Source: a virus. From it: a stretch of 59,052 bases of DNA. The notes beneath the pieces are model-generated. The model had not been told where the DNA came from and ran no database searches. It was given only the letters and a program-made list of their open reading frames with translations. The DNA is taken from positions 1 through 59,052 of IMG/VR virus record IMGVR_UViG_3300025030_000115. The stretch is one strand, 5' to 3'. Shown here piece after piece: positions 12,113 to 59,052 of this stretch. Numbering within the stretch: position 1 is the stretch's first letter; each line of letters starts with the position of its first letter. The position numbers and the translations under genes are program-made.

Positions 12113-12144
12113 ATTATATACACAATCCTAGGAATATTTATTAC
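12113..12144 (-). promoter_or_regulatory. Phage-type promoter GTAATA-N18-TATATAAT (copy D)
   Basis: On the minus strand GTAATA begins at 12144 and TATATAAT covers 12120-12113, with the same 24-base offset seen in three other places. TATATAAT is followed by TT and AGTGAA. It lies about 50 bases before the GIY-YIG start codon. A diverged GGTAACTACC element lies further upstream at 12189-12198. Confidence 0.72.
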
Positions 12145-12258: not shown

Positions 12259-12288
12259 TTGACAAACCGGCCTGTCTCGTGCTATACT
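12259..12288 (+). promoter_or_regulatory. Sigma-70-like promoter for the replication operon
   Basis: TTGACA (12259-12264), an 18-base spacer and TATACT (12283-12288). It shares the TTGACAAAC start and TATACTGG end with the promoter at 24610, implying a common early promoter class. It lies 47 bases before the TTG start of the DnaB-like helicase gene. Confidence 0.82.
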
Positions 12289-26054: not shown

Positions 26055-26066
26055 CCGGATAACTAC

Positions 26067-27038: not shown

Positions 27039-27379
27039 ACTGCATCGAAGTAGCCACCTTTACTGCTCAAATCTACGTAGGACTAAAAGTGGGCTATGGT
27101 ATTTATGAACATCCGGCTGTCGAGGCACACCGTATTTGTCAAACCTATTGTGACAAAGTAAAACTATGTGTAACTGTAACTCCGACAGCCTTTCATTACG
27201 TAGATGGTAATGAGGAGGGGGTTATCGTAGGACTTATAAATTATCCTAGATTTCCTTCTACTCCTGAGAAGATAACCGAACAGGCCGTAGAACTTGCCAA
27301 ATTACTTAAAGAAGGGCTTAACCAAAACCGAGTTAGCATCGTAACGCCTACTAAAACCATAATGCTAGGAGAGCCATGA
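27035..27379 (+). CDS. Conserved phage protein between sbcD- and sbcC-like genes (114 aa)
   Basis: GTG 27035 follows GGGAGGG at 4-5 bases and overlaps the sbcD-like stop. The C-terminal two thirds (CVTVTPTAFHYVDGNEEGVIVGLINYPRFP...) looks like a small globular protein found in various phages; I know no function. Its place between two subunits of one complex, with overlaps at both ends, hints at a shared role. Confidence 0.8.
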   Translation: MNCIEVATFTAQIYVGLKVGYGIYEHPAVEAHRICQTYCDKVKLCVTVTPTAFHYVDGNEEGVIVGLINYPRFPSTPEKITEQAVELAKLLKEGLNQNRVSIVTPTKTIMLGEP

Positions 27380-31867: not shown

Positions 31868-31895
31868 ATTTGAAAATTTGGTAGGAAGGTGTTTT

Positions 31896-34817: not shown

Positions 34818-34849
34818 GTAATAAAAAGATAGTGTTTTAGGTATATAAT
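34818..34849 (+). promoter_or_regulatory. Phage-type promoter GTAATA-N18-TATATAAT (copy A)
   Basis: GTAATA at 34818 and TATATAAT at 34842-34849 with the same 24-base offset found on the minus strand at 12144, 44620 and 54334; then TA and AGTGTCAC. No -35 TTGACA is present. It is the only plus-strand copy and lies upstream of nrdD. The 34774-34817 stretch before it is rich in AAGG words and holds no gene. Confidence 0.75.
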
Positions 34850-34861
34850 TAAGTGTCACTA

Positions 34862-34900
34862 AAAGGGGTGGGTCAAACTGCCCCTTTAATTTTAACTTTA
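34862..34900 (+). terminator. Hairpin with T-rich tail between clpP-like gene and nrdD
   Basis: AAAGGGG (34862-34868) pairs with CCCCTTT (34881-34887), with a 12-base loop, followed by AATTTTAACTTTA. It could end transcription from the dut/clpP operon. Because promoter A would start transcripts at about 34855, the hairpin also lies at the very 5' end of nrdD mRNA and may protect it or attenuate transcription. Confidence 0.6.
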
Positions 34901-34917
34901 GTAAAGGGAGTTTTAAA

Positions 34918-36816
34918 ATGTACATTCACACCAGTAGTTATGATAAGGAATTTGTAGAGCTGATGGAGTACCTCAGAGGTAAATATCCAGCTAAGTTGTT
35001 CGATGTAGACGGCATTGGGAAGCAGCTTGATATGTGCCAATTCTCCAAGGATTTTTTTGCAGCTACCACTACCGCAGATGCTAGTGTGGATGCCAACAGT
35101 AATGTTGTAGATGTTAGTAATATCACCTACAACACGGAATTACCTAAGCCCTTTTTTAAACTTAATAGCTATTTCATTCTTTGGAAAGAGATGAGAAAGT
35201 TGTACGGGTCCGAAGTGGCTAACTCAGCTATAGAAAAACAAATTACAGGAAGCCTATATTTTCATGATGTACACGGTATTGCTTCGGCTATGAGTTATTG
35301 TTTTAACTACTCTACTTATGACATTATGCTTCTAGGGCTCCCTATGGTGACTAAAATAAAGTCGGTCCCACCTAAGCATTTGTATAGCTTCAAGTCTCAG
35401 CTAGAGCAGTTCGTAGTGCTTGCTGCTAACAGTACCCTAGGAGCTACTGGACTGGCTGATTTATTTATTGTAATGTCTTACTATGTGGCTAATATTTTAA
35501 GAACTAAATCAGATGCTGGCTTTAAATTTAGTACAGAAGAAGACTGCTGGAAATACGTGGCAGAGAATTTGGTATCTTTTATATACACCATCAACCAGCC
35601 GCTAAGGGCGTCTCAGTCCCCATTCACTAATGTCAGTATTTATGACAGTGAATTTTTAAGCAGTCTCTGTCCTAACTACATATTCCCAGACGGCAGTACT
35701 CCTAATATTAGTATTGTTAAACAGATTCAGGAATTGTTCTTAGATATTATGAACGAAGAAATGAAGAGAACCCCAATCACCTTCCCAATATCTACCGCCT
35801 GTTTTGCAGTAAATGAGGACAAGGAGATTATTGATGAAGAGTTTGCAGAAATTATTGCTAAGAAAAATCTAGAGTTTGGTTTTATCAATATATATTGCGG
35901 AAAATCTAGTACGCTCTCTAGTTGCTGTAGACTCAGAAGTGACACAGAGCACGAGTATTTTAACTCTTTTGGGTCTGGTAGTACTAAAATTGGGTCTCTA
36001 GGTGTAGTAACTGTAAACCTGCCTAAAGCCGCTGTGGAGAGTAATAAAGATCGTACCAAATTTCTGGATGCTGTAAGGAACTTAGTAGGTACTGCTGCTA
36101 GAGTTAACCACACTAAACGAGCGGTAGTAAAAAAGAGAATAGACCAAGGCATTCTTCCACTCTACTCATTAGGCTTTATGGACTTGAGTAAGCAATATTC
36201 CACAGTCGGAGTTAATGGCCTGAACGAATGTTGCGAGCTGATGGGTTATAATATTTTGACAGAGGAAGGCCAAGAATTTGTAAGTAGAATACTTGAAGTT
36301 ATAAATTCTGAAAACGATAAATTCCAAAAGGCTTACAAAACTCCACACAATACAGAGCAAATTCCTGGAGAAAACGTAAGCATTAAGTTGGCTGAGAAAG
36401 ATAGAATGTTGGGTTTTAATGACAGGTATGACCTTTACAGCAATCAGTTTATTCCGCTCACTACTAAAGCAGATGTTTTAGATAGGATAAAGCTGCAAGG
36501 TATTTTTGATAGTCAGTTCTCTGGAGGAGCCATCTGTCACGTTAACGTAGAACAGAAAATAGAAGACTACCGACAAGTTGTGGCTTTAATTAAGTCTTGT
36601 GCTAAATCTGGGGTAGTATATTGGGCGATCAACTTTAATATTCAGAGATGTGAAGAGGGTCACATGTCCGTAGGAAAACTAGACTACTGTTATTGCGGAG
36701 CTAAGATCACTGATAATTTTACTAGGGTGGTGGGGTTTTTGGTCAACGTTAAAGCTATGGCCCCAAAACGTAGAGAGGTAGATTATCCTAATAGGCAGTT
36801 TTATAAGGAAGTGTAG
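34918..36816 (+). CDS. nrdD: Anaerobic ribonucleoside-triphosphate reductase
   Basis: Makes deoxynucleotides without oxygen by glycyl-radical chemistry. Seen: the Cys-rich loop STLSSCCRLRSD, the SLGVVTVNLPKAA strand typical of NrdD, YWAINFNIQRC near the end, a metal-binding group (C...YCYCG), and the radical loop RVVGFL with Gly near residue 606. At 632 aa it is somewhat short for the family. Start ATG 34918 follows AAAGGGAG. NrdG follows after an HNH gene. Suggests replication in anoxic hosts. Confidence 0.9.
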   Translation: MYIHTSSYDKEFVELMEYLRGKYPAKLFDVDGIGKQLDMCQFSKDFFAATTTADASVDANSNVVDVSNITYNTELPKPFFKLNSYFILWKEMRKLYGSEVANSAIEKQITGSLYFHDVHGIASAMSYCFNYSTYDIMLLGLPMVTKIKSVPPKHLYSFKSQLEQFVVLAANSTLGATGLADLFIVMSYYVANILRTKSDAGFKFSTEEDCWKYVAENLVSFIYTINQPLRASQSPFTNVSIYDSEFLSSLCPNYIFPDGSTPNISIVKQIQELFLDIMNEEMKRTPITFPISTACFAVNEDKEIIDEEFAEIIAKKNLEFGFINIYCGKSSTLSSCCRLRSDTEHEYFNSFGSGSTKIGSLGVVTVNLPKAAVESNKDRTKFLDAVRNLVGTAARVNHTKRAVVKKRIDQGILPLYSLGFMDLSKQYSTVGVNGLNECCELMGYNILTEEGQEFVSRILEVINSENDKFQKAYKTPHNTEQIPGENVSIKLAEKDRMLGFNDRYDLYSNQFIPLTTKADVLDRIKLQGIFDSQFSGGAICHVNVEQKIEDYRQVVALIKSCAKSGVVYWAINFNIQRCEEGHMSVGKLDYCYCGAKITDNFTRVVGFLVNVKAMAPKRREVDYPNRQFYKEV

Positions 36817-36817
36817 T

Positions 36818-37672
36818 ATGATTGTGGATGAACTTATACGAATAAAACTGAATAATACAAATATCGAACACTTCAAATCTTTGGGTTATGAAGTCAGCAG
36901 TAGGTATGGTGAGATTATAGAAGTCAAGAGCACAGACTTATCTATATACAGTCATGTAAAAGTGAGAGCTGTATGCAATCTATGTGGAAACCAAATTTTG
37001 ATTTCAAACAGTAAGCACACACGATCAATACTTGGGAGGGGTGAGTACTTGTGCTCACCCTGCTCAAAAGGAAAATTCTCACTGGAAGAAGTGAGAGCTA
37101 TGTTAGAGGGTGCGGGGATGTTCCTGGTCAGTACTGAATATAAAAACAACAAATCTCCTATACAGTTTGTATGCCGTACTCACCCAAACACCTTACAAAA
37201 AATGTGTATTAGTGATTTCAGAAAGGGAGCTAGATGTAAGTTATGTACCGGAGGCGATTATAACAAATGGCGCAGAAAGGTAAGGGAGCTGACTACCGTA
37301 CAGTACCTGAGACAATGCACTGACGGGTGGAAGGCATATACAAAAGATTTCTGGTGTGACACTTGTGTGATTTCTAAAAACCAATCCAAAAGAAATCACG
37401 TACATCATATAATTAAGCCCTTCAAAGAAATTACTAATGAAACCTTTCAGGTGACTCAGCTGGAAGAAAGAAAATTTATAAAGGAATACTCGAAAGAAGA
37501 GTTAGAACTGCTGACCAACACTTTTAATACTATACACAAAAGTTATGGAATAGGTATTGTTATGTCACCAGAACTTCATTACAAATTTCATGCAAAGTAC
37601 GGGAAGCAAGAAAATCTAGAAGATTTTGCTGAATTTTGGGAAGAACATTCCAGCAACAGGGTTACATGCTAA
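36818..37672 (+). CDS. HNH homing endonuclease between nrdD and nrdG
   Basis: N-terminal zinc-binding parts (CNLCGNQIL...CSPCSKG; FVCRTHPN...CKLCTGG) precede an HNH-type core with CDTCVIS, HVHHIIKPF and MSPELHYKFHAKYG. The gene begins one base after nrdD and overlaps nrdG by 7 bases. Homing endonucleases commonly invade phage nrd operons. Base composition looks AT-rich like its surroundings. Confidence 0.85.
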   Translation: MIVDELIRIKLNNTNIEHFKSLGYEVSSRYGEIIEVKSTDLSIYSHVKVRAVCNLCGNQILISNSKHTRSILGRGEYLCSPCSKGKFSLEEVRAMLEGAGMFLVSTEYKNNKSPIQFVCRTHPNTLQKMCISDFRKGARCKLCTGGDYNKWRRKVRELTTVQYLRQCTDGWKAYTKDFWCDTCVISKNQSKRNHVHHIIKPFKEITNETFQVTQLEERKFIKEYSKEELELLTNTFNTIHKSYGIGIVMSPELHYKFHAKYGKQENLEDFAEFWEEHSSNRVTC

Positions 37673-38127
37673 GCCTACTAGCTACCCAATACTCACTTAG
37701 TACAATGTCCCTAGAACTATACTTTTCAGGATGCAGCGGGCCTCATTGTAAAAATTGTCATAATACTGAGTCGCACGATTTTAATAATGGCTCAAAAATA
37801 ACTGCTATAGAACTTTTCACACAAATAGAAAGTAAGGTTAATAACTCTTACGGATTAGTTAAGCAGATAATGCTATTTGGAGGCGAACCTCTAGACCAAC
37901 CACTAGATGAACTTACTGAATTAGTAAACCATACAAACACATTAAACTTACCTATCTGGCTGTTTACTAGGTATGAACTTTCAGAAGTACCTTCCAGTTT
38001 ACGTATCAGGTTTAGTTACATTAAAACTGGAAGGTACCTCGAAGAGTTTAAAGGCAAACACACACAGTATGGCATTACATTGGCAACTAGCAACCAGAAG
38101 ATTTACAAAAGAGGGTTAGACTACTAA
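37666..38127 (+). CDS. nrdG: Anaerobic NrdD-activating radical SAM enzyme
   Basis: Installs the glycyl radical in NrdD using SAM and a 4Fe-4S cluster. FSGCSGPHCKNCHN carries the cluster cysteines in a C-x4-C-x2-C pattern, one residue longer than the usual C-x3-C-x2-C. MLFGGEPLDQPLDEL and YIKTGRYLEEF...LATSNQKIY are standard NrdG segments. 153 aa, as expected. Start ATG 37666 lies inside the HNH gene end. It closes the plus-strand arm; a strong terminator follows. Confidence 0.87.
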   Translation: MLSLLATQYSLSTMSLELYFSGCSGPHCKNCHNTESHDFNNGSKITAIELFTQIESKVNNSYGLVKQIMLFGGEPLDQPLDELTELVNHTNTLNLPIWLFTRYELSEVPSSLRIRFSYIKTGRYLEEFKGKHTQYGITLATSNQKIYKRGLDY

Positions 38128-38132
38128 CCAAC

Positions 38133-38166
38133 AAAAGCCCCTACAAATTATCTTGTAGGGGCTTTT
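38133..38166. terminator. Strong bidirectional rho-independent terminator
   Basis: A perfect 14-bp stem (AAAAGCCCCTACAA and its complement; 38133-38146 with 38153-38166) and a 6-base loop. With A-rich and T-rich outer ends it works on both strands. It separates the plus-strand nrd operon from the converging minus-strand late operon. Confidence 0.95.
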
Positions 38167-38192
38167 CTCATTCATCTGAAAAATCATCTAAA

Positions 38193-38206
38193 TAGGTAAT
38201 TACCTA
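38193..38206. repeat. Recurrent 14-bp palindrome, copy 3
   Basis: TAGGTAATTACCTA between the lipase stop (38213-38215) and the terminator, followed by a second half-site ATTACCTAA. The 38188-38212 segment is the exact reverse complement of 25654-25678, starting right after the lipase stop codon. Confidence 0.85.
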
Positions 38207-38212
38207 AATTAC

Positions 38213-38809
38213 CTAAATCATAGTAAGGCCACTAAAATTCTTATCAATAAACTTGTTATAGTAGCTAATCGAATGGTCCCCAACATCCACCAACTCCTCA
38301 CCACTATCCCCGTCAGTAATACCTATCCCCTCACATTTATGTTCAAAAAGCAACCTAGGAATCATCGCTATAGGGTCATCACTCATGTAAATTCTGACAT
38401 GATCTACAGAGGATTTAAAAGACCAATATTTAAAGTACACTCTAGGCGACCCGAAGGTAACACAACCAACTCCCAATTTCTCAGCGAATAAAATAGCAAC
38501 AGCACCGCCTAAAGAATGCCCTGTAAAGATTACCTTCCGGTCGTCTCCCAACTCCTTTAGAATCTTAGGGCTAAGTTTATTAAAAGCTCTGACGAAGCCC
38601 CACGTGCTAAAGAAACTTCCAAACTTCCAAGGGATAATGTTAATGTCCCTAGCAGCATTTATAACATTGCTTGTACCTCTAATTGACACTATGGTTAAGT
38701 CTGCTAAGTGTGTAATGGAATAACCCAAGTCTTTGACCTCAGTGCAATTGTCGTAGACCTCTTCAGATAACTTGCCACATAGTCTTATTAGTTCGTTTGT
38801 AATTGGCAT
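38213..38809 (-). CDS. Class 3 (fungal-type) lipase/esterase
   Basis: The nucleophile elbow FTGHSLGGAVA (Ser99), DD near 144-145 (YMSDDPIAMIPR) and His179 (VGDHSISYY) give a full Ser-Asp-His triad of the lipase 3 family. No signal peptide is seen. It lies directly after the endolysin gene in the late operon, so it may aid lysis by attacking membrane lipids or lipoproteins. Rare among phages of this type. Start ATG 38809 after AAGGAG. Confidence 0.85.
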   Translation of the reverse strand: MPITNELIRLCGKLSEEVYDNCTEVKDLGYSITHLADLTIVSIRGTSNVINAARDINIIPWKFGSFFSTWGFVRAFNKLSPKILKELGDDRKVIFTGHSLGGAVAILFAEKLGVGCVTFGSPRVYFKYWSFKSSVDHVRIYMSDDPIAMIPRLLFEHKCEGIGITDGDSGEELVDVGDHSISYYNKFIDKNFSGLTMI

Positions 38810-38820
38810 TTGTGGGCTCC

Positions 38821-39267
38821 TTACTTATCTTCAACAGGCCATCTGTAAGCAACTACTTCGTAACTTCCCAGACCAAAACTAGATACCTTAACTTGGTCAC
38901 TCTGGTTACCGCCTAAGAGGTATATCCTACCACCTTCAATCTTCTTGAAAAACCCTACATGATTACCTGACGCAGACCCAGTAGCCTTATCCCCGCCTTT
39001 AAACTTCTGGCGAATTACTGTAATAGCACCCGCCTTCGGCTGGTCAAGTTTAGTACCCCATTTTATAAAGGATGCTGCGGCTGCGCTGTTAGTTCCTTTA
39101 ATGCCAGCCGATTTAAGGCACCAATTGACGAAGGAAGCGCACCACGGAATTTCATCCTCCTTTGCGGCTAGAGAAGTGGTGGCGTGGTATTCTATGATTC
39201 TTTTGTTTTCTCCGCCTCTGACCTCACTAACACCTATTTCCTTCTCAGCGATTTCCATCCATTTCAT
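38821..39267 (-). CDS. CHAP-like peptidoglycan hydrolase (endolysin)
   Basis: The protein matches the TIGR02594/CHAP pattern: EIGVSEVRGGENKRIIEYH, DEIPWCASFVNWC with the catalytic Cys43, GNHVGFFKKI with His103, and YLLGGNQSDQV. No signal sequence, so a holin or other exit route is needed; none is recognised in the window. It cuts the host wall at lysis (family-based inference). Start ATG 39267 follows TAGGAG. Confidence 0.85.
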   Translation of the reverse strand: MKWMEIAEKEIGVSEVRGGENKRIIEYHATTSLAAKEDEIPWCASFVNWCLKSAGIKGTNSAAAASFIKWGTKLDQPKAGAITVIRQKFKGGDKATGSASGNHVGFFKKIEGGRIYLLGGNQSDQVKVSSFGLGSYEVVAYRWPVEDK

Positions 39268-39276
39268 TTTAATCTC

Positions 39277-40944
39277 CTAGAAAATTCCCAACTCCGTATA
39301 ATCGCCCCAATAACTATCTTTCTCCGAAAAATTATTCTTGCTATAAAGGTCGCAGTGGTTTGTAAAATTCTTTCCGTGGTTAATATGGGCACTAGAATTA
39401 ACACAGTGCCAAGGACTTCTCACTAAATCAGGCTCTAGCATCACCTGCCCTCTTAGCAAAGACTCTTTAACTTTACTCTCAAAATGCACCAAAGCATCAC
39501 TAAAAAGCATGGTCATCTGGTGCAAAGGAATAGAATCGTGCACATGTCCGTAATCCTGAAAGCCCTCAGAACATACACCTTTTAAGTTAGTATTATAAAT
39601 CACCCCTCCGTCAAAGTCAGGATAATCAAAATAGCCCTCTGGATAAAGTACGTCATGCTCTAAGAAGCTGACATATTTATAAGACCCAGTAGCTTCGGCT
39701 CGGTAAAGTAGTTGAAGAATCTGCAAAGTAATGTTCAGGTGGTTGCTACTCTGAGTCTGTGCTATGAGTTCTGGGAAGGGGTTATTTTCGATAGTTTTCC
39801 AAGTGCTTGTAAGAATATCTGCCTTGCCCCTAGATACTTTCTCCAAATTACCTAAAACATTACTCACAACATTATCGTCATTGTTGTTTGTATAGAATAT
39901 TCCAAGTCTGTTACAGGTACCTTCTGGGATAATTAGATAATCATTTTCGGGGATTACTTTAGAGTACTCAACATCATCCAGTTTGTACTTAACCACTAGG
40001 TGCTTTAGTATGCCTTCTTGGGGGTCCCATCCGGCTAGGATATTATTCACGCAGACGTTAATACCGCTGCCTCTAACCAATCGTTTAAGATTAGCTGTTA
40101 CGTTAGCCCCTCCGTACGATGCTTCTATAATTTCTAACTTCACATTCTTATCCTTTGCAGCGGTTAGTTGTGTAGCTATTGAGTTAACCCTATCAGCGCC
40201 GAAATGTTCTTTTACCGGAGCTAAGTCAAGACCTAGTTCGGTAAAACCTATAACATAGTTTCTGATCCTATCGTCGTAAATCATAGGATAAGGTATATCT
40301 CCCATGCCAGTTTTGAAGAGGTGAACCCAAGACAGGAAAGGAAGACAGAGAGTTTTATGCCCTGCCTTTCTATACTTACTGTGAATGTAGCCCTCTTCCC
40401 CGCCAAAGCCTGCAAAGTCTGGATTAAATCCTAGCCAAGCATCTTTCCTACAAGCAAATAGACCAAGCCCCTGCATAGGAATTTCGTAGGGTTCTGAGTT
40501 AGGGTCTACTGAAGCAGCGCGCCAAGTCCCCCACATACCGCTTGCCCATTCATCATTGAAAGCGTCTGCATAATTAACTAGATCATCATATTTTAGAGGA
40601 CCTTGCAGAAGATCTTTACAGTCAGGATTTTTAGAAGTCCAATCTTTAAAACTAGCCATAGCACCTTCTGTGAGTAAAACATGAGTGTCAATGCACATAA
40701 CCCAGTCACCTAGAGCCTCTCTAAATACAAGGTCTCTAGGTGCTGAAGTTCCTGTTTTTTCTGTGTAAAGAATGTAGCGAGTTCCATAGGTACCGTCTAT
40801 AAAATTCTTTAACCGCGTATCTCCGTAGTTGTCTATCACTAAAATCTCAGTGTCTGTCATATCTTGATACATCAATAGAGACTGCACAGTAAACCAAACT
40901 TCAGTAAAATTGTTATAACTCGCCATTCCTATTGTTAGTTTCAT
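39277..40944 (-). CDS. Two-domain glycosyltransferase (GT2-type, GalNAc-transferase-like N-terminus)
   Basis: Residues 1-270 are a GT-A fold: TIGMASYNNFTEVW, ILVIDNYGD, and CIDTHVLL with a DxH metal motif (Asp86, His88), as in polypeptide GalNAc-transferases, then GFGGEEGYIHSKYRKAG. Residues 270-555 form a second domain with FLEHDVLYPEGYF, perhaps another transferase site. Its ATG overlaps the fibre stop by 4 bases (ATGA). Because both fibres upstream carry Thr/Pro-rich mucin-like segments, they are a candidate acceptor. A role in host surface or DNA glycosylation is also possible. Confidence 0.85.
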   Translation of the reverse strand: MKLTIGMASYNNFTEVWFTVQSLLMYQDMTDTEILVIDNYGDTRLKNFIDGTYGTRYILYTEKTGTSAPRDLVFREALGDWVMCIDTHVLLTEGAMASFKDWTSKNPDCKDLLQGPLKYDDLVNYADAFNDEWASGMWGTWRAASVDPNSEPYEIPMQGLGLFACRKDAWLGFNPDFAGFGGEEGYIHSKYRKAGHKTLCLPFLSWVHLFKTGMGDIPYPMIYDDRIRNYVIGFTELGLDLAPVKEHFGADRVNSIATQLTAAKDKNVKLEIIEASYGGANVTANLKRLVRGSGINVCVNNILAGWDPQEGILKHLVVKYKLDDVEYSKVIPENDYLIIPEGTCNRLGIFYTNNNDDNVVSNVLGNLEKVSRGKADILTSTWKTIENNPFPELIAQTQSSNHLNITLQILQLLYRAEATGSYKYVSFLEHDVLYPEGYFDYPDFDGGVIYNTNLKGVCSEGFQDYGHVHDSIPLHQMTMLFSDALVHFESKVKESLLRGQVMLEPDLVRSPWHCVNSSAHINHGKNFTNHCDLYSKNNFSEKDSYWGDYTELGIF

Positions 40945-43148: not shown

Positions 43149-43151
43149 AAG

Positions 43152-44540
43152 TTACTCCTTTTTCCAGTCGTCTAATGTAAAGGTCACACCGGGAGTAGCC
43201 GCTATCGGAGGCACGACTTGAAGTCTGAATGTGGATGTGCTGCTAAGATAGTTAGATGCTATTGTCGATGTTCCCTTCAACACACCATTCCGATAGTATT
43301 CAATTGTGGTTGCTGATGCGTACTTGATTTTAAGTACATCATTGACGGGGTAGGTGAACCCTGCGGCATTAATTGATTCTATCGCGTAAGGTGCGAGGTT
43401 GGATGACAGGTATGTTTCTATCCCTGAATCCTCCCCATCTTCCCAACGCTCCATATTATAGTAAAGACCTATCAGGTTACTGTTTACTGGGTTAACTATA
43501 ATCAAGCCCAGAAAACCTTTAAGCAGGTTAGTAGACGTTATCTCAGATATGCTCGACAGCTTTACCGATAGGCTGTCTCCCACTGCAAACGGTATCGGGT
43601 TTTTAGTATTAAGAAGTACGTTAGGGTTGCCCGCTGAAGGTCGAGACTGTATCTGCAACTGATTACCTACGACCTTCGCGTAAGCCTCGGCAGCTACATC
43701 TATAAACGTAGGTGCATTGAGTAAGCTGGTTTCATAGTTAGTGCCCGGTATCGAATCATCTGCTGCATTGAAGGTGATGTTAAAACCAGCCGGAGCCGCC
43801 GTCGTGGTCGTGGTGGTCGGTACTGCCGTAGTGGTGGGTGCCGTCGTGGTAGTTGTGGCGGCGACAGTTGTAGTAGGAGCCGCCGTAGTAGTTGCAGCAA
43901 CAGTAGTGGTAGTAGGACTAACCGTAGTCGTAGGCGCACTAGTAGTTGTGGGTACTAAAGTGGTTGTAGCTGCTACAGTAGTGATTGCCGAAACAGTAGT
44001 CGTAGGACCTGCCGTAGTAGTTGCGGCAACCGTTGTAGTGGGTGTTACAGTAGTCGTGGGTGCAATAGTGGTTGTCGGAGCTACAGTAGTACTAGGCACC
44101 TCAGTAGTTGTCCCTAACAAATCAGTCCTAATAACAAACGTATAGCCCTGTGCAAACAATGCATCTTCCTGTGCTTGCGTAGCAGCTTCACCTACAAGTA
44201 TTCCAGACTGACCGATTCTAGCATCTATCTTCCGAATTACTTCCTGAGTTAAATGAAAGGCAAACTCGCTATCGCCAGCGTGTATTTCAGCGAGACCTAG
44301 GTTGGGAGTCCAGTCAGTAGTTATCTGGTAAGCCGAACCAGCCACAGAAATTCCAGCGTAGTTGGGGCTGATTTTAATTTGGGTATTACTATCCACCGAT
44401 ATAACCCCGTAAATAGCAGCTACCCCGTAAACCTTAAAAGTATCCCCAACATTAACCTTACTGAGCCAAGAAGTTCCCACCCCAGTCACTACATTTGTAC
44501 CTTGATCTACAGATACTGCGCCTACCTGATACTGTGCCAT
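43152..44540 (-). CDS. Tail fibre protein with mucin-like Thr/Pro linker (462 aa)
   Basis: Residues 1-140 form a beta-rich head (VTGVGTSWLSKVNVGDTF..., a phage particle attachment-like domain), 144-250 are a Thr/Pro/Ala linker (TTTVAPTTT units), and the C-terminus (FNITFNAADD...GLYYNMERWEDGED...EYYRNGVLKGT) looks like a concanavalin-type carbohydrate-binding jelly roll. It has its own promoter (copy B). It could bind host sugars. Neighbouring glycosyltransferase may modify its linker. Confidence 0.8.
   Translation of the reverse strand: MAQYQVGAVSVDQGTNVVTGVGTSWLSKVNVGDTFKVYGVAAIYGVISVDSNTQIKISPNYAGISVAGSAYQITTDWTPNLGLAEIHAGDSEFAFHLTQEVIRKIDARIGQSGILVGEAATQAQEDALFAQGYTFVIRTDLLGTTTEVPSTTVAPTTTIAPTTTVTPTTTVAATTTAGPTTTVSAITTVAATTTLVPTTTSAPTTTVSPTTTTVAATTTAAPTTTVAATTTTTAPTTTAVPTTTTTTAAPAGFNITFNAADDSIPGTNYETSLLNAPTFIDVAAEAYAKVVGNQLQIQSRPSAGNPNVLLNTKNPIPFAVGDSLSVKLSSISEITSTNLLKGFLGLIIVNPVNSNLIGLYYNMERWEDGEDSGIETYLSSNLAPYAIESINAAGFTYPVNDVLKIKYASATTIEYYRNGVLKGTSTIASNYLSSTSTFRLQVVPPIAATPGVTFTLDDWKKE
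43791..44111 (-). repeat. Thr/Pro/Ala-rich repeat in the 462-aa fibre
   Basis: About 107 residues of imperfect 6- to 8-residue units such as APTTTV and AATTTA. The DNA is a degenerate repeat of Thr codons, a likely hot spot for length change by slippage. Confidence 0.9.
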
Positions 44541-44588
44541 ACAAGTCTCCTAACGATTTTATACTAAAACAATAAATCATTTCACTTT

Positions 44589-44620
44589 ATTATATACACT
44601 CTTTGGGTAATAAATATTAC
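44589..44620 (-). promoter_or_regulatory. Phage-type promoter GTAATA-N18-TATATAAT (copy B)
   Basis: On the minus strand GTAATA starts at 44620 and TATATAAT covers 44596-44589, then AA and AGTGAA. The GTAATA box has an inverted partner two bases on (TATTAC). It lies 49 bases before the 462-aa fibre start in a 99-bp gap that holds nothing else. Confidence 0.75.
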
Positions 44621-44639
44621 TTGGCAAGTACATTTAATA

Positions 44640-45155
44640 CTAGGCCCACCTAATTGCTTCTACTTCCTCTACTGTCCCAGCTAATTCTATTTGAGTTTTT
44701 ATGGCTCTGGCCTTTTGGTGTATAGCGTCGCCTCTCAAAGCCATAGTTATGGGTATCTGAACCATCTGAGATTTGTTTAGAGTTATTGTAGAGCTATCCT
44801 GACAAGTCCATTCTATAGAAAACTCTGGGGCAACTTGTGCAGCTTGAACTGCTATGCTAATTCTTCTGATAGCTGCTGAGTCTGAGTCAAACCTTTTGCC
44901 TAGATAATCAAAGCCAGAGAGTTCTTCTGCGTCTCTGGCTTTTTTGATTTCTTCCCACTTCATAGTTTTAGCGTCAGCTAGGTCTATCGTCGGAAGTATA
45001 GAAACCGGTTCTCCGTTGATGATGTGTGTTGCTTCCGTTGGGCAGTTGAGAAAAAATTCCTCACCTTCGAAACATTGACTTGCCGCTTGACTTATAGGAC
45101 AATCCGTATGCCTACTTATAAAACCGGTAGACACGTCATAAATAGCTATATGCAT
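44640..45155 (-). CDS. DUF4376-type tail protein, possible fibre assembly factor
   Basis: The second half (MKWEEIKKARDAEELSGFDYLGKRFDSD...AIRRISIAVQAA...IHQKARAIKTQIELA...VEAIRW) fits DUF4376, a domain common downstream of phage tail fibre genes. The N-terminus is a small beta domain. Its position after the large fibre fits a tail-associated or chaperone role. Start after AGGAGTATAATAAT. Confidence 0.78.
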   Translation of the reverse strand: MHIAIYDVSTGFISRHTDCPISQAASQCFEGEEFFLNCPTEATHIINGEPVSILPTIDLADAKTMKWEEIKKARDAEELSGFDYLGKRFDSDSAAIRRISIAVQAAQVAPEFSIEWTCQDSSTITLNKSQMVQIPITMALRGDAIHQKARAIKTQIELAGTVEEVEAIRWA

Positions 45156-45167
45156 ATTATTATACTC

Positions 45168-48100: not shown

Positions 48101-48878
48101 AGCTGGATAGCGCAGTAGCTAATGAAGAGCTACTAACTAGTGAAGAAGTAGCTCCTGTAATAGCGGTAGCAGTCGCAGAATCTGCTTCTACTTTAGTGTA
48201 GTAGCTAGACAAAGCCGTAGCTAAAGAGGAGCCGCTAATGAATGAAGATGTAGCCCCAGTTATTGCTGTAGCGGTAGCAGAATCAGCCTCAGTCTTTGTG
48301 TAGTAGCTAGTTAACGCAGTAGCTAGCGACTCGTTAGTAACTGACCCCGAAGTGGCCCCTACAACTGCTTGAGCTATTGCCGTATCAGCCTCTACCTTAG
48401 TGTAGTAATAGTCCAACGCTGCGGCTCTGGCTTGGGCTTCCCCAGATACCGCAGCAGCTCTATCCAAAACTTCTTGGGCCAGTCTATCTACCAGACCGAG
48501 TTCAGGCAAGTCTATTAAGTCTATCCTGCTACTAAGTTCAGAGTGCAGCTCGCTGTCTGTAATCTGCCCCGACAGCATAGCAATAACATCCCCAACAGAC
48601 CGTACCTCGACACTCTTTTCCTCAGAGTAGTTTAAACTTAGAAAATCAATGTTTTCGGGGTCTTCAAAACTATCGTAAGCAGCTACCTTAACATAGTACA
48701 CCCCGTCATCTGAAGGGATAGTTACAGAAGTATCAGGCCCAATGCTAACCACATTACTTGCGGAAGGCGTGAAACCGCTCTCTAAAGATGCATTGATTAC
48801 ATAACCTACCACGTCAAGGTCAGGTGCCGGATTAAATGTCACTACATAATTTTTTATTCCAGCTTCTAAGTTTATCAT
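45168..48878 (-). CDS. Large central tail fibre protein with repeats (1236 aa)
   Basis: Residues 1-95 form a fibronectin-III-like domain (IKNYVVTFNPAPDLDVVGYVI). Then come 34-residue YYTK repeats (158-293), a gpJ-type C-terminal part (MLKVDANGKIAGIGLW...VDQGTVYIAKAAIKDGDI, DUF1983-like), three 110-130-residue coiled repeats with TEKxSVRKEWD and FRxNWKNYYDxRTxLLNAI, and an end with a beta domain. It continues the lambda gpJ arrangement as a separate gene. Start after AAGGATAATTT. It likely forms the host-contacting tail tip fibre. Confidence 0.85.
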   Translation of the reverse strand: MINLEAGIKNYVVTFNPAPDLDVVGYVINASLESGFTPSASNVVSIGPDTSVTIPSDDGVYYVKVAAYDSFEDPENIDFLSLNYSEEKSVEVRSVGDVIAMLSGQITDSELHSELSSRIDLIDLPELGLVDRLAQEVLDRAAAVSGEAQARAAALDYYYTKVEADTAIAQAVVGATSGSVTNESLATALTSYYTKTEADSATATAITGATSSFISGSSLATALSSYYTKVEADSATATAITGATSSLVSSSSLATALSSYYTKAEADSATATAITGATSSLVSNTSLATSLSSYYTKVATDSAIATASSGAVATANNNTASALINYSTTVQTNTAINGAITTAVSAKMMLKVDANGKIAGIGLWSDGVTSNVEILADRFSIVGAGPGATPLVPFIVDQGTVYIAKAAIKDGDIDNAKIGNVIQSSNYVAGSAGWKIDKAGSPEFNSGTFRGKVIFGAASSGYNNLTDKPTSLAAISSTDASTLSTASSTAATALTNAATAQNSANTANSLLSDIAADNKLTATEKHSVRKEWDIVAAEWSGISTQADTFTITTEKTNYINSFQALANYLNAGVTWSSGVPSWISDANLSVTTTIVGSTFRTNWKNYYDKRTALLNAIATKAKTIADAAHTAADTAVTTANTAAANATTAAANATTANNLLTDIASDSRLTPNEKYSVRKEWDIVAAEKAGIGTQATSFGITTEKTTYDSAFQSLANYLNSGVTWSSGIPAWLSDANLSTTTAIVGAAFRVNWKNYYDARTALLNAIAAKAATMANFTDGDVTTIARPVGGSYTFSGGVTGAIKIALPVLWTNTMIQFSVDVYNYSANKHFTVLIGGYNSSSVGWVNTSSSIVGGVNANYAVRYGHDGVSSCVWIGEADTVWSHPKVSVKNVIVGYINYSIDTWKSGWDVSMVTAFNTVTYTDSDNMVYASDVAKVGGTLAATVRDNAATALADATTANSLLSDIASDSKLTPVEKQSVKLEWDVVVAEKSANDTQATSFGITTEKTAYGTAYTTLSTYITPLLTDLTATSNIVGATFRTNFKNYYDARTTLLNAIATKAKTLADAAQSTANTASNTITNWTKPGETTIDGNKIYTGDAYVDTLQIKGEALILSYLTLGQNYFYTSADFSAHASIQMCTTVVDLTTVPTEVGNVSVAIRAHAYFNGYAAGMGIRVNGISVGSTQGYSTTYYMDYQGFGVNAKTALAVGQSHTIALYADASSGRWINKPTLEIMAIKR
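45690..47370 (-). repeat. Three large internal modules in the central fibre gene
   Basis: Approximate positions are 46995-47370, 46558-46915 and 45690-46010. Each encodes LLxDIAxDxKLTxxEKxSVxxEWD, then TTEKTxY and FRxNxKNYYDxRTxLLNAI. Modules one and two are closest; between two and three a beta domain is inserted. Confidence 0.85.
48000..48407 (-). repeat. Four 34-residue (102-bp) tandem repeats in the central fibre gene
   Basis: Four units beginning YYTK.EAD and containing ATAITGATSS and SLATALSS lie end to end at residues 158-293; a fifth is partial. They probably form a trimeric stalk. Confidence 0.9.
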
Positions 48879-48887
48879 AAATTATCC

Positions 48888-51800
48888 TTAAGTTATTCTA
48901 GCCGGTACTGGGTTAGCTACTTGCAATGTTTTTGGAGCAGACTCTCTTCCTAACCTATCTACTGCAATTACAGTAATACTGAAAGTTCTAACTGGCCTAC
49001 CTGCTCCGTCCACGTAATTTTGTTCGTACTTATAGTCGTAATGCTCATCATAAACCTTAGTGCTATGTCTCACAGAACCATCGGCATTCTTAATGGTTAT
49101 CTGGTATTCCTTCAACCAAGAATCCGCCGTGGCTGTTGCTAGGGCACTGTCGGTAGCTAGATCGTTGAGATTGAAGTCAACTACAGCAGGCTTCCGCCAA
49201 GTGAATTTAGCATCCTTCCCCGCAAACTCCGTAGTATTTCCCTGCCCAACTAACTGAAGACCCTTAATGCCCTTTATAAATTCCGCGTTGTCTATATACG
49301 GAGTTATGTAGAGGGTGTAGTAAGGAGTAAACTCAGTATCTCTTAGCGCCTCGGCTATACTCTGTCTAGTACCATCTGTGTAAACTGAGATACAGATGAA
49401 CTGGTATTCTCCTTCTACAGTTATCTCAGGAATGTTGACTACTCCGGTTTTGTCTATAGGAGTCTCTGAGTAAACTCCGTTAATCCCATAATAGACTATA
49501 ACTCCAGCCCACCCTAACTGAACAGGTTTTGAGTAGTAAACTCTAGCACCTGTCTTTAAGTTACCTGTAGAATCAACGTAGACGGTAGATTCAACAAGCA
49601 CATTCTTAACTGACCTCTTGATGGTATCTAAGCTGCTGTAGTTAGGCATCACTATAATTGGTAGGTCAGTAATGTCATCAGCGTCTGTGTAAATCTCGTC
49701 AAGGTACTCTACACAGGTAACTTCTATAACTTCGTCTTTGTCCCTTTTAAGAGAAATTATTTTAAAGGGCTTTATGGTGTTTGTAATGTCACCTACAATA
49801 TACAAATCATCCTTCGCTGGGGTATTTACAGGTAGTTCGTCTAAGGTAAATTCTCTGCAGATGCCCGTATTACTTGGCGTAACCGCAAATATCTCTGGAG
49901 ACTTGCCTTTACAAACTAACTGCATAGAGTATAAAACAGAAACATCCGAGCTAATTTCTACATCATCACTTACAGTTATTAGTCTGGTCTCTACATCGTA
50001 ACTTACCACCCTCCCGCCAAATCCCCACTGAGGGACGTCGTGCTGTACACCTATCACGTCCCCTACCGTAGATAGCAATCCATAAGTAGAAGTTTTAAAA
50101 GAAACAGAAGTAGTTAAGAGCTGACCAACCCTGAGAGCATATTTAGCAAGTGACTTAGCTTGATTCTCTTCGGTAACGCCAATCAACTGCAAGGTCTTTT
50201 TGCTTTCTTCCTTAGTAATGTCTAGCTGGTAATCTGGATCTTCAAGTATCAAGGTATCCTGATCGTAGTCCTTCTCTTTATTATTGAACTGGACTTCATA
50301 TACGTTAGGAAGTTGCTTGAAAGACATACCTGTTTCGACATACTCTTTAATGTTGCTCATGTTAAAGAGTTGGCTTATAGGTTTGGGTCTATCAATGTCT
50401 ATGAAAACTACCCCTTCAGTGTAGTACAAGGTAGCTCTCATCGAAGCACAAATAATAGTCAACCATTCAATAGCTGTCTTGGATTGGTCTATTACTATGT
50501 TTAGGCTGAATCTTGGTCTGGCGGATTCGTAAGCAGGGTCGTTTATATCAGTTATTACGTTACCTTCTCTCGTTACCCTAGCGTCACAGTACTGAGCCAT
50601 TATGTAAAAATTGGCCAACATTATTCCGGCTTTAGAAGGTAAAATTTTAAAGTAATCTTTAAGGCCATACCTAGAGTTAGTTATCAGATCGTACAAGCAC
50701 CACACAGGGTTGTCAGTCCACTGCTTGTCTGGTTGAAATTCACCCGTAAAACTGCCAGCCATGTACCTTCTAGTTCCATTATAATTTACCGGAACTTTGA
50801 CCTTAGTACCCTGAATTATGGACGTTACGTTAGGTAACCCCCCAGAAATGTATTCAGTAGCTTTTATAGATAAGCCCATTAAGGCTGTGTGAGGGTACAC
50901 TAAAGATTCATTGACAACTTCCACTAAATCTTTTACGTATATGGCGTCTTGGATAAGAAGATCGTCTATGTTAGATTTAGTCTCCCTCACCACAAGCAAA
51001 TCGTAGGTAGCTACTTCAGACATTGGCAGAGCTACTGAATATTCTAAGGAAGATTTGGTCTTTCCTTTCATCGTAGCTGCTTTGAATTTTTCAGTAGTAC
51101 CGTTTTCGTAGTGAGTTGTGAAGAATTCCTCGTCTGTCTTTTTCCAGTAGATTTTTAAATCTACTGAGGTTTCTTTTATATCTCCGCCAGAACTTTTATA
51201 AAGAACTGGCGCGGTGAAGTTAACAATTACTTTATCTACTGGTATACTAGTGGTCATTACAAGACCGTTGATACTTACTACTCCAGCAGGGCTTATAGAG
51301 CCTTCGGTGTCATTTGCGACCAAAAGATTGTAATCGGTAGAGTTACTTACTTGATTAAAGTTTTTCATTACAGGGCCGGTGTCAGAAGATATGGTTCCGG
51401 CTTCCTGTATTGTATATTTAGAAACGTAGAAGGCTTCTGGAATATATTGTATCTCCGGGCTGTAAACCCCATCTACCCAAGAGTTATACTCATAACTTAG
51501 CATTGCGGTTTCTACTACTTTTATTTTGTAAACTCCAGGATTGACGAAATTTACAGTAAACTTTTTAGGCGGATTGTTTTTCTCATACTTAGCAGTGAAG
51601 TCGTAGAATTTTGTGTAGTCGGAGGCATCTGAAGCTAACTTATAGTACACCCTAAAGCCATAACTTATAAATAATATCTTAGGCAGAGATACCCTAGACA
51701 GTTGTAATTCAACGCTGGTAGCCGTAGTCTCTAGGGTTCTTTCCCAACCTGTTGCGGTGATTATAGCTTGTGTCTCTGGGGTGACTACGCTAGTGGCGTC

Positions 51801-52568
51801 CACAGCAGTTACTAAAGCGCTAGAAGGTGCGGGTTGTAATTTACTACCGTACCTGTAAAGTGCCTCTATGTCCGAGGAAGGAAATGTGTAGGCTCTCCTT
51901 CCGTTTATCTCTAAAGAGTTTGGGTCGATAGAATTGATTTCGCCTTCACAAAGACCTAGTTGAAGTCTTAGCCAACTAGTGTTTCCTACTGCCCCAGTAC
52001 CTATAACGTCATTGTATGCGTTCAGTATGTGCCCACCTACACGATGAGTCCCATAAACAATACCTATCGGAGTACCTAAGACGGTAGTATTTTTGATGCC
52101 AGAGAAAGTGTATGTAGCGGAGGTATTGTTTCCAGAGTCAAAGGTTGGTAGCGATGGCGTCCCTGCTATGAGTTCACCTACCCCGCCTAGGGCCATACCA
52201 GCGCCCATCAAAGCAAGACCCGGACCCCAAGTAGCTCCCCAGTTGAATAAGCCAATAGCCATTAGAGCAGCGCCGGCAATGATCCTACCTACAGCACTTT
52301 CTCCATAAGGCACATCACAGCCTACTTCAAGTATATCTTCAGAACCAACCTTTCGGTGTATTTCCTTTACTTCTGTTATGTATTCTCCGTTTAATTTAAA
52401 AGAAGTCTTATCAGCTTCCTTACCATTATCTGCCACCAAAAATACATGCAGTTGAGGATAATCATTTAAAAGACTCTCTAACACAACACGCAGAGAATCG
52501 CCTTTGACCTCTATAGTTTCCTGAAAACTTGTATATTTAAAAAAGTATGGATCAAATTTAATTATCAT
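48888..52568 (-). CDS. Tail tip attachment protein, fused I/J type (1226 aa)
   Basis: The N-terminus (about 1-85) is a beta-grasp domain like lambda gpI, followed by a Gly/Ala-rich hydrophobic stretch (AGAALMAIGLFNW...ALMGAGMALGG). The remainder is gpJ-like: VLGTPIGIVYGTHRVGGHIL, WLRLQLGLCEGEI, ITNSRYGLKDYF and a run of beta and fibronectin-like domains. So the I and J roles appear joined in one protein. I start at ATG 52568, with AAGGA upstream; a frame start 54 bases earlier would overlap the NlpC gene too far. Recognises host and forms the tail tip. Confidence 0.85.
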   Translation of the reverse strand: MIIKFDPYFFKYTSFQETIEVKGDSLRVVLESLLNDYPQLHVFLVADNGKEADKTSFKLNGEYITEVKEIHRKVGSEDILEVGCDVPYGESAVGRIIAGAALMAIGLFNWGATWGPGLALMGAGMALGGVGELIAGTPSLPTFDSGNNTSATYTFSGIKNTTVLGTPIGIVYGTHRVGGHILNAYNDVIGTGAVGNTSWLRLQLGLCEGEINSIDPNSLEINGRRAYTFPSSDIEALYRYGSKLQPAPSSALVTAVDATSVVTPETQAIITATGWERTLETTATSVELQLSRVSLPKILFISYGFRVYYKLASDASDYTKFYDFTAKYEKNNPPKKFTVNFVNPGVYKIKVVETAMLSYEYNSWVDGVYSPEIQYIPEAFYVSKYTIQEAGTISSDTGPVMKNFNQVSNSTDYNLLVANDTEGSISPAGVVSINGLVMTTSIPVDKVIVNFTAPVLYKSSGGDIKETSVDLKIYWKKTDEEFFTTHYENGTTEKFKAATMKGKTKSSLEYSVALPMSEVATYDLLVVRETKSNIDDLLIQDAIYVKDLVEVVNESLVYPHTALMGLSIKATEYISGGLPNVTSIIQGTKVKVPVNYNGTRRYMAGSFTGEFQPDKQWTDNPVWCLYDLITNSRYGLKDYFKILPSKAGIMLANFYIMAQYCDARVTREGNVITDINDPAYESARPRFSLNIVIDQSKTAIEWLTIICASMRATLYYTEGVVFIDIDRPKPISQLFNMSNIKEYVETGMSFKQLPNVYEVQFNNKEKDYDQDTLILEDPDYQLDITKEESKKTLQLIGVTEENQAKSLAKYALRVGQLLTTSVSFKTSTYGLLSTVGDVIGVQHDVPQWGFGGRVVSYDVETRLITVSDDVEISSDVSVLYSMQLVCKGKSPEIFAVTPSNTGICREFTLDELPVNTPAKDDLYIVGDITNTIKPFKIISLKRDKDEVIEVTCVEYLDEIYTDADDITDLPIIVMPNYSSLDTIKRSVKNVLVESTVYVDSTGNLKTGARVYYSKPVQLGWAGVIVYYGINGVYSETPIDKTGVVNIPEITVEGEYQFICISVYTDGTRQSIAEALRDTEFTPYYTLYITPYIDNAEFIKGIKGLQLVGQGNTTEFAGKDAKFTWRKPAVVDFNLNDLATDSALATATADSWLKEYQITIKNADGSVRHSTKVYDEHYDYKYEQNYVDGAGRPVRTFSITVIAVDRLGRESAPKTLQVANPVPARIT

Positions 52569-52962
52569 TTTGATTATCCTTGTGCCTGAGTATGCAATGT
52601 ATCTTGCCATACCACTGACCACTTTTGTAAGAATGAACTGCTGTGCCTATTTTAGTGGTATGTATGAAATACTCAGAATCTATTATTACGCCTAGATGCT
52701 TAGGGATTCTGTGTTCAATTAAAACTACTACATCGCCTTTCCTCGGAGAGTCGGGTATCTTAAAGAAACCTTCAGACTCATAACGGGCAAGTATCAGGTT
52801 GTCCTTTAGATTAAACCAGTCCTCAACATAATCAGCGTCTGGAAGGTCTATTCCGAATTCCTTAGAGTAAATGAGTTTGACCAGTCTGTAGCAATCAGCA
52901 CCTTCTCCGACGCCAGAACCTCTAAACTTATACGGAATTTTCAAATACTCTAAGTAATTCAT
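52558..52962 (-). CDS. NlpC/P60-type tail assembly peptidase (gpK C-terminal-like)
   Basis: GVGEGADCYRLV carries the catalytic Cys24 and PKHLGVIID the His89, as in NlpC/P60 cysteine peptidases. In lambda this domain is the second half of gpK; here it is a gene of its own. It may cut tail-tip proteins or peptidoglycan. It overlaps the tail-tip start by 11 bases. Confidence 0.85.
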   Translation of the reverse strand: MNYLEYLKIPYKFRGSGVGEGADCYRLVKLIYSKEFGIDLPDADYVEDWFNLKDNLILARYESEGFFKIPDSPRKGDVVVLIEHRIPKHLGVIIDSEYFIHTTKIGTAVHSYKSGQWYGKIHCILRHKDNQNDN

Positions 52963-52963
52963 G

Positions 52964-53605
52964 TTAGAAATTTATCCTTCTGGTTTGTGTAGGAATCCCA
53001 GGGAAGCCTCCGAACCTAGCCTCGTTACCCTTCTGCCTACAGCTATCTAAGTCTTTAGTGCAGGTACTCTCAGCCCCCGCGTACATGCAAGTTTCTGGAT
53101 CTTTGAATCTCCAGTAACACATGTGAGTGAACCTTCGTCTAGGAATTTTTATACTAAAGTCACACACAGGGTCTAACTGAAATTGTACGGTCTGGTCTGT
53201 AGCAGTGTAGCTGTCAATTATAAAAGAGTCTTCTACGCAAGACAAAGGATCTGGAGACTCACCTGAATCCAGAAAACGCTCAAAGACAGTCTTAACTTCT
53301 ACACGAATTCCCCTTAAGCCTTTAAACTGTTGTAAGTAAGCCTGAAAGGTTCTCTCTGGGTTTGCCACAACAAGACTTGCTTTACTTATCTCTCCGGTCC
53401 CGGTCATCTCTATACCATTAAAAATGACCGGAAACTTTATGTAGGTAACTCCATCATAAATTACATCTTCATTTGCATCTACTATATTTATGCTAGTAGG
53501 TTCAGGAGTCGTAGGAATATCCATAAAAGTGATTAGATGATAAAGTTGGCCTTGTTCTGTTTTAGTAGTTTCTTCTCTAAATAATGCGCTTAAGTCTCTA
53601 GCCAT
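52964..53605 (-). CDS. Minor tail protein L-like
   Basis: Belongs to the phage tail L family: YHLITFMDIP, VIYDGVTYIKFPV, FQLDPVCDFSIKIPRRRFTHMCYWRFKD and a final Cys set (MCYW, ETCMYAG, STCTKD, DSCRQKG). In lambda gpL four cysteines bind a 4Fe-4S cluster; the same arrangement seems present. It helps initiate the tail tip. Overlaps the JAB gene by 16 bases. Confidence 0.88.
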   Translation of the reverse strand: MARDLSALFREETTKTEQGQLYHLITFMDIPTTPEPTSINIVDANEDVIYDGVTYIKFPVIFNGIEMTGTGEISKASLVVANPERTFQAYLQQFKGLRGIRVEVKTVFERFLDSGESPDPLSCVEDSFIIDSYTATDQTVQFQLDPVCDFSIKIPRRRFTHMCYWRFKDPETCMYAGAESTCTKDLDSCRQKGNEARFGGFPGIPTQTRRINF

Positions 53606-53895
53606 AAATAATCATCCTTTGTTACTATCAGAAATTTGTAAGGAAACCTTTTAGCAGTTTCTAGGTCTGCCTCGGAAGGTTTGCAATTATAAGGATGTGT
53701 GTGCCATATAGCAACCACCCTAGCACCTGAATTTAAAAGACTAAACCAACTGAACTTATCAAACACAAACGCATCTTTATTTCTGGACACATTTGCAATC
53801 TCAACTGTGGTTCCGTCCCCTAAAATTACCCCGCACCTTTCGCTTACTAAATTTGATAGTGCTTGTAATTTTCTAAGTGATTCCTCAGAAAGCAT
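53590..53895 (-). CDS. JAB/MPN metalloprotease-like tail protein (gpK N-terminal-like)
   Basis: JAMM signature: Glu19 (SERCGVI) and HTHPYNCKPSEAD (His65, His67, Asp77). In lambda gpK this domain is fused with NlpC/P60. Here the two halves are separate genes with L between them. At 101 aa it is a bare domain. Start TAATG overlaps the M-like gene stop. Confidence 0.88.
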   Translation of the reverse strand: MLSEESLRKLQALSNLVSERCGVILGDGTTVEIANVSRNKDAFVFDKFSWFSLLNSGARVVAIWHTHPYNCKPSEADLETAKRFPYKFLIVTKDDYLWLET

Positions 53896-54272
53896 TACAG
53901 AACCTCTTCTAGTTGAACGTCCAAGGAGTATAGAGGAGTCTTGAAGTTATGTGCGAAACTCTTAGCAGCAAAGGCTTCCATTTTAAACCTCACAGTGAAC
54001 TCTTCTTTACTTACGGGGTCAGTCCATTTAAACGCCGAGTAAGAACCTTTCCTAGCTATGTAAAAGTCTTTCAAGGTTTTGTACTGAGTGTCTGTAAGTG
54101 CCTTGTAGGAAAAGTCGAAGGTTTGCTTAAGTCTACCTTTTGGCCGGACTTCCTCAATCCCGCTGTCTGACACAAATGAGATGTTATTGCTCTTAATTCC
54201 ATAAGAAACAGGAAGCGAACAATTGGGCATAGGCTTTCCTGTAGTTGTGTCGGTAGTTGGGTACGTTTCCAT
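53895..54272 (-). CDS. Minor tail protein M-like
   Basis: Matches the Phage_min_tail family: YKALTDTQYKTLKDFYIARKG, SYSAFKWTDPVSKEEFTVRFK and a final YSLDVQLEEVL. It stands just after the tape measure gene, as M does in lambda. It has its own promoter (copy C) after the tape measure terminator. The start follows AGGAGAGAAT. Confidence 0.87.
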   Translation of the reverse strand: METYPTTDTTTGKPMPNCSLPVSYGIKSNNISFVSDSGIEEVRPKGRLKQTFDFSYKALTDTQYKTLKDFYIARKGSYSAFKWTDPVSKEEFTVRFKMEAFAAKSFAHNFKTPLYSLDVQLEEVL

Positions 54273-54302
54273 ATTCTCTCCTGTACTATGTCTTTCTACT
54301 CT

Positions 54303-54334
54303 ATTATATACAAAATGGTTCAGTATTTTATTAC
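54303..54334 (-). promoter_or_regulatory. Phage-type promoter GTAATA-N18-TATATAAT (copy C)
   Basis: On the minus strand GTAATA starts at 54334 and TATATAAT covers 54310-54303, then AG and AGTAGAAA. It lies 31 bases before the M-like start and just after the tape measure terminator, so it should drive the tail-tip operon. Confidence 0.77.
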
Positions 54335-54349
54335 TTGAGCAAAGAAAAA

Positions 54350-54375
54350 CCCTACTAAATTTTTGTTTAGTAGGG
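54350..54375 (-). terminator. Rho-independent terminator after the tape measure gene
   Basis: On the minus strand TTTAGTAGGG pairs with its complement (54366-54375 with 54350-54359), a 10-bp perfect stem with a 6-base loop, then TTTTTCTTTG. It ends the tape measure transcript just before promoter C. Confidence 0.88.
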
Positions 54376-59035: not shown

Positions 59036-59052
59036 AAAAGAAATAGCGAACT

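Follow-up and report, generated by a model that had tools for sequence, protein, structure and literature searches.

A putative late promoter class in a group of T5-like phages and a sigma region 4-like candidate for its factor

The late promoters of phage SPO1 have two boxes that are 18 apart, and they are served by a two-protein factor, gp33 and gp34. The second of these proteins is the late sigma (PMC9429907). In Salmonella phage 7-11, a phiEco32-like phage, the late promoter GTAAtg-16-aCTA is read by the phage sigma SaPh711_gp47 (PMC8948821). In T5, early and late promoters are both of the sigma70 type and differ mainly in the discriminator, and how T5 turns on its late genes has yet to be explained (PMC7472727). 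Here, we analysed a two-box element, GTAATA-N18-TATATAAT, in a 59-kilobase (kb) virus contig, which is a fragment of a T5-like phage (IMG/VR record IMGVR_UViG_3300025030_000115, positions 1 to 59,052; hereafter the window, or G000). Based on comparison with related sequences, its four copies very likely belong to a dedicated late promoter class of a T5-like phage group. A 129-residue protein encoded in relatives is the candidate for its factor.

Of the systems described so far, the phage 7-11 late promoter comes closest; it is a parallel and does not imply membership. Both late promoters are bipartite, with similar upstream boxes, and lie upstream of late genes in phages with host-type early promoters; in both there is a phage sigma-like protein with a region 4, and for 7-11 a positive feedback from the late promoter on the sigma gene has been proposed (PMC8948821). 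However, the spacer of 16 and the downstream aCTA of 7-11 differ from the spacer of 18 and TATATAAT here, and gp47 is a functional sigma subunit in vitro (PMC8948821), whereas region 4 is the only part of a sigma that can be recognised in the protein described here. The phages also differ, those studied here being T5-like. The T4 late system (gp55, gp33 and gp45) is similar in its AT-rich 8-base element near -10, in driving both late structural genes and certain homing endonucleases (PMC7892883, PMC2988022), and in that at least two small proteins act on the host RNA polymerase (PMC7892883). In contrast to the conserved upstream box found here, a -35 box is lacking in T4 late promoters; gp33 has no structural relationship with sigma region 4 and does not bind DNA on its own, and gp55 has a sigma region 2 (PMC7892883), while no such protein was found here in the relatives G003, G011 and G007. 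Kayvirus also has host-type early and phage-specific late classes, with some units under both, and a late promoter before the homing endonuclease I-MsaII, but its late promoters consist of one long -10 box, TGTTATATTA, and lack a -35 box (PMC7698491). SPO1 has other box sequences and another host. T5 shares with these phages the use of host RNA polymerase, a similar genome size (PMC7472727) and the terminase family, that of G003, a close relative of the window, having about 30% identity to those of T5-like enterobacterial phages.

A two-box motif between genes

The four sites in the window are as follows.

12113..12144, minus strand: putative late-type promoter, GTAATA at 12144-12139, N18, TATATAAT at 12120-12113; faces a GIY-YIG gene
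34818..34849, plus strand: putative late-type promoter, GTAATA at 34818-34823, N18, TATATAAT at 34842-34849; faces nrdD
44589..44620, minus strand: putative late-type promoter, GTAATA at 44620-44615, N18, TATATAAT at 44596-44589; faces a tail-fibre gene
54303..54334, minus strand: putative late-type promoter, GTAATA at 54334-54329, N18, TATATAAT at 54310-54303; faces a minor-tail M-like gene

A preliminary description had reported these copies, starting at 12144 (minus), 34818 (plus), 44620 (minus) and 54334 (minus), and they proved to be the only exact matches in the window. As it had also stated, TATATAAT starts exactly 24 bases after the start of GTAATA at all four sites and is followed each time by N2-AGTG or N2-AGTA. 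The exact copies are beyond chance, as it had estimated, with none in 100 dinucleotide-preserving shuffles of the window; a control with the reversed pattern gave no match. When up to three mismatches are allowed, the window has 21 matches, which is nearer to the background (mean 11), so that the signal resides in the exact copies. The fuller motif is approximately KTAATAAW-N15-GTATATAATA-N-AGTR. The G before TATATAAT, which was not a selection criterion, is found at all 18 non-redundant sites, and TATATAAT itself includes a perfect host -10 hexamer, TATAAT. TTGACA is missing at the -35 position of every site, as described before, whereas T5 late promoters have a TTGACA-like hexamer there.

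All four sites are located between genes and point at the next start codon (12063, 34918, 44540 and 54272, respectively), and the 54334 site comes directly after a terminator, with a perfect hairpin and a T-run immediately upstream; both observations agree with the preliminary description. The genes behind the sites and the terminator are listed below.

11056..12063, minus strand: free-standing GIY-YIG homing endonuclease gene, with a Pfam LEM-3-like GIY-YIG domain and helix-turn-helix repeats; behind the 12144 site
34918..36816, plus strand: nrdD, anaerobic ribonucleotide reductase; behind the 34818 site
43152..44540, minus strand: tail-fibre gene, by PHROG tail fibre matches; behind the 44620 site
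53895..54272, minus strand: minor-tail M-like gene, by gene order and sequence, with orthologs in ten records; behind the 54334 site
54345..54375, minus strand: intrinsic terminator, a 10-base-pair stem and T-run (by fold and sequence), after the tape-measure gene and directly upstream of the M promoter

The window encodes a set of replication genes (DnaB, primase, family A polymerase, exonuclease, SbcC/SbcD), and nrdD with its radical-SAM partner. The minus strand carries a lambda-like tail block, which includes the tape measure, fibres and the M-, L-, K- and J-like genes; JAB, L-, K- and J-like genes come after the M-like gene. No isolated phage close to it at the DNA level was found. Relatives were retrieved from IMG/VR via the DNA polymerase, J and the regulator gene described below. 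They comprise G001, G003 (105.7 kb), G011 (113 kb), G025 (113 kb), G023 and fragments, together with the more distant G007 and G026, a lineage of 50% GC; their sequence is held in loci L061-L093 and L103-L115, and the records are linear contigs that may be incomplete. Orthologous sites were found for the 34818 site (in G001, G003, G011 and G025), for the 44620 site (G002, G003 and G004) and for the 54334 site (G002, G003, G004, G011, G013 and G025).

The spacing is fixed across the group. Over G000, G003, G011 and G025, exact TAATA-Nk-TATATAAT occurs 16 times at k=18 and 0-2 times at every other k from 12 to 24. A weight matrix built from the 18 non-redundant sites gave 37 matches (4 in the window, 8 in G003, 6 in G011, 7 in G025 and the rest in fragments), which are not independent events, as the records partly overlap and some fragments are near copies of others. 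The motif could have been equally common inside genes, yet all 37 matches lie between genes and are directed at the start codon that comes next on their strand, mostly at a distance of 16-120 nucleotides, in genomes whose non-coding share is just 5-11% by open reading frame call. The reversed matrix gave a single weak match across the motif-bearing records. For four promoters (M, regulator, nrdD and protease) compared in three lineages, the two boxes are 82% and 93% identical, as against 39% for the spacer and 33% for the upstream sequence. A 20-base extended pattern matched nine stretches in the whole IMG/VR collection; seven are in contigs of this phage group, and the remaining two, in AT-rich contigs, are apparent chance matches in coding sequence. 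G007 and G026 have no forward match to the matrix. An equivalent late motif in these two records was sought, and only a weak, unconvincing shared element, CCYATACC-N-ATARTGAAGC before M and the protease, was found.

The element is common to the structural block and to free-standing homing endonucleases. Its structural and metabolic targets in G003 are the head of the terminase operon (3217, minus), M (95725, minus), a fibre gene (86194, minus) and nrdD (75538, plus). Two GIY-YIG genes are also targets (3598, plus; 52937, minus), and the product of the window gene 11056..12063 is 47% identical to that of a G003 gene with the same promoter. The G003 site at 28248 (minus) faces a gene of PHROG homing-endonuclease families, and the one at 58795 (plus) faces a small open reading frame followed by a homing-endonuclease-like gene at 59040. 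In G011 and G025, a unit of prohead protease and capsid is an additional target (97207, plus, and 81975, minus, respectively). Strong host-type sites, TTGACA-N17-TATAAT, form a separate set that is mostly distant from structural genes. A host-type promoter of this other class is found in the window, divergent from the 12144 site.

12259..12288, plus strand: host-type promoter TTGACA-N18-TATACT, before DnaB

From gene content and the parallels with T4 and Kayvirus, we infer that the host-type set is early and the GTAATA set late, and late timing of the sites is likely. The preliminary description had proposed that late genes are served by a further promoter class without TTGACA, together with a phage factor. 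The class and factor are supported by the conservation of orthologous sites, their constant spacing and position between genes, the late genes among their targets and the sigma-like gene that heads the late operon in relatives; the targets are not only structural genes, nrdD and endonucleases being among them. That homing endonucleases of several families carry the phage late promoter is in line with T4, where some homing endonucleases are driven from late promoters (PMC2988022).

The sigma4-like protein of the terminase operon

The regulator that had been expected elsewhere in the genome has a candidate in the relatives, from which its role is proposed. In G003, the head gene of the late (terminase) operon (2779-3168, minus strand) encodes a protein of 129 residues and is followed by the terminase small subunit, two small genes and the large subunit. 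Residues 63-127 match PHROG sigma-factor families, and orthologs in five genomes have phrog_1740 as best match, with E-values down to 2e-10. In a profile search of solved structures, a sigma factor was the top match (E 0.007). The AlphaFold model is confident for approximately residues 66-127 only, and this C-terminal part aligns in Foldseek with isolated sigma region 4 structures, with template modelling scores by target of 0.64-0.83 and a probability near 1. We name the protein sigma4-like, and not a sigma factor, because a region 4 and no region 2 could be recognised. It is reasonably probable that this protein is the factor for the sites.

In G003, G023, G011 and G025, which represent three lineages, a consensus sigma70 promoter, followed shortly by a late motif, is placed before the gene of the sigma4-like protein. 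This arrangement suggests early synthesis followed by positive feedback. The ortholog in G007 and G026 is 32-37% identical to the G003 protein; its gene has kept the sigma70 promoter and lacks the late motif, and its presumed DNA-contacting helix is different, a correlation between motif absence and helix change that extends over two groups only. A tblastn search of 50,697 phage records gave no relative of the protein, and no homolog was found in bacterial genomes.

Another product was considered as a T5 C2-like factor, that of 29250-30767, and was set aside; it is conserved but has no family match. This protein of 505 residues is present in all lineages (33-41% in the distant ones) and has a C-terminal part with four cysteines.

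Proposed mechanism and alternative explanations

We infer that the sites initiate transcription, act late and are recognised at GTAATA by the sigma4-like protein. The host holoenzyme would first make this protein from the sigma70 promoter. The protein would then engage the polymerase of the host, with the beta flap as its probable contact, in the manner of sigma region 4, and it, rather than host sigma region 4, would most likely read GTAATAAA in the -35 region, while GTATATAAT in the -10 region would fall to host sigma region 2 or to an unrecognised partner. The late promoter before the gene of the factor would close a positive loop that leads to the switch to late transcription, upon which structural operons and endonucleases would be turned on. 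Homing-endonuclease genes inserted in the early region would carry their own copies and so be expressed late. The mechanism as a whole, with late promoters on host RNA polymerase, the sigma4-like protein at GTAATA and feedback, is slightly favoured over its competitors taken together. A narrower version is put forward tentatively, with somewhat less than even support: a stand-alone region-4 protein would take the place of host region 4 at -35, with TATAAT still read by host region 2, giving an autoactivated split-sigma switch; promoter box and recognition helix would co-vary between lineages, and homing endonucleases would have captured the promoter on several occasions. If true, host RNA polymerase would be retargeted by a minimal route, with a region-4 domain only. 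This distant T5-like group offers a defined late promoter and one strong candidate regulator with a clear early-to-late circuit, which makes the switch testable in vitro with few components.

Several observations weigh against this mechanism. The gene of the factor is present in relatives and lies outside the window fragment. None of the Foldseek E-values reaches 0.001, all being above 0.04, the Sigma70_r4 match is below the Pfam curated cut-off, and the N-terminal half (residues 1-62) has no confident model. Sigma region 2 (PF04542) was absent from the search of G003, G011 and G007, in which controls were positive, and no region 2 partner was found in Pfam and PHROG scans of unassigned G003 proteins, one PHROG scan covering the best 25 families. 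Moreover, nrdD, normally not a late function, bears the promoter, and a terminator-like hairpin is located between promoter and gene.

34862..34887, plus strand: hairpin in the nrdD leader, beginning 12 nucleotides after TATATAAT

This strong hairpin is found in G000, G003 and G011, with a similar one in G025, its position kept and its sequence changed; if terminating, it would block its own promoter.

The missing region 2 also suits an alternative in which the host sigma70 holoenzyme uses TATAAT, an unrelated phage activator binds GTAATA, in a sigma appropriation comparable to that by T4 MotA/AsiA, and the sigma4-like protein acts elsewhere. The perfect host -10 hexamer within TATATAAT fits such a promoter, and many small genes are without a family match. 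Even so, no candidate activator was identified, box 1 sits where sigma region 4 binds, and the gene of the sigma4-like protein is the sole recognised sigma-like gene and has both promoter classes in three lineages. We regard this explanation as unlikely. Slightly less probable still is a complete alternative sigma, either of the host or encoded by the phage in unseen parts or in a form too divergent to recognise. The possible incompleteness of the linear contigs leaves room for it, and box 1 is like the GTAAtg that the complete sigma of 7-11 recognises (PMC8948821), but the region 2 search of G003, G011 and G007 was negative while its controls were positive. A host sigma, in addition, leaves the change of motif between phage lineages and its absence from G007 and G026 unexplained, although those may have another host. 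A promoter of a T7-like polymerase found no support: no candidate polymerase is among the large open reading frames, those of at least 600 residues in G003 being assigned, through matches or their position, to polymerase, SbcC, nrdD, fibre and tail genes, and PF00940 gave 0 matches, as it did in the control genomes. That the sites serve replication, packaging or homing as binding or insertion sites, as the several copies adjoining homing-endonuclease genes might suggest, is hardly credible, given that every copy faces a start codon, many adjoin structural operons without an endonuclease, and the two-box -35/-10 geometry is promoter-like.

Other observations

The nrdD product has 977 residues in G003 (L068:15639-18572) and 632 in the window, with about 336 extra residues after residue 337; the extra segment is likely an intein or a similar insertion. 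Homing-endonuclease-like genes without their own late promoter are found at 36818-37672 and 31878-32795, one of them between nrdD and the radical-SAM partner gene. An Rfam scan of the window gave no match, and no tRNA genes were found in the G003 pieces or in three longer G001 pieces. The gene order of Rhizobium phage RHEph10 was examined and gave nothing useful.

G007 (L071-L076) and G026 (L111-L115) have 26-32 exact copies per record of the palindrome ATTCA-N4-TGAAT, which is not found in the motif-bearing genomes. The copies are mostly intergenic, often in the spacers of sigma70 promoters or just before a ribosome-binding site, and the palindrome looks like a genome-wide operator. Segment 4151-5560 of the window has four tandem paralogous small genes, whose products of about 120 residues end in a YNEW/YNEF motif; such genes are also present in relatives, for example at 21291-21647 and 25964-27064 of G003.

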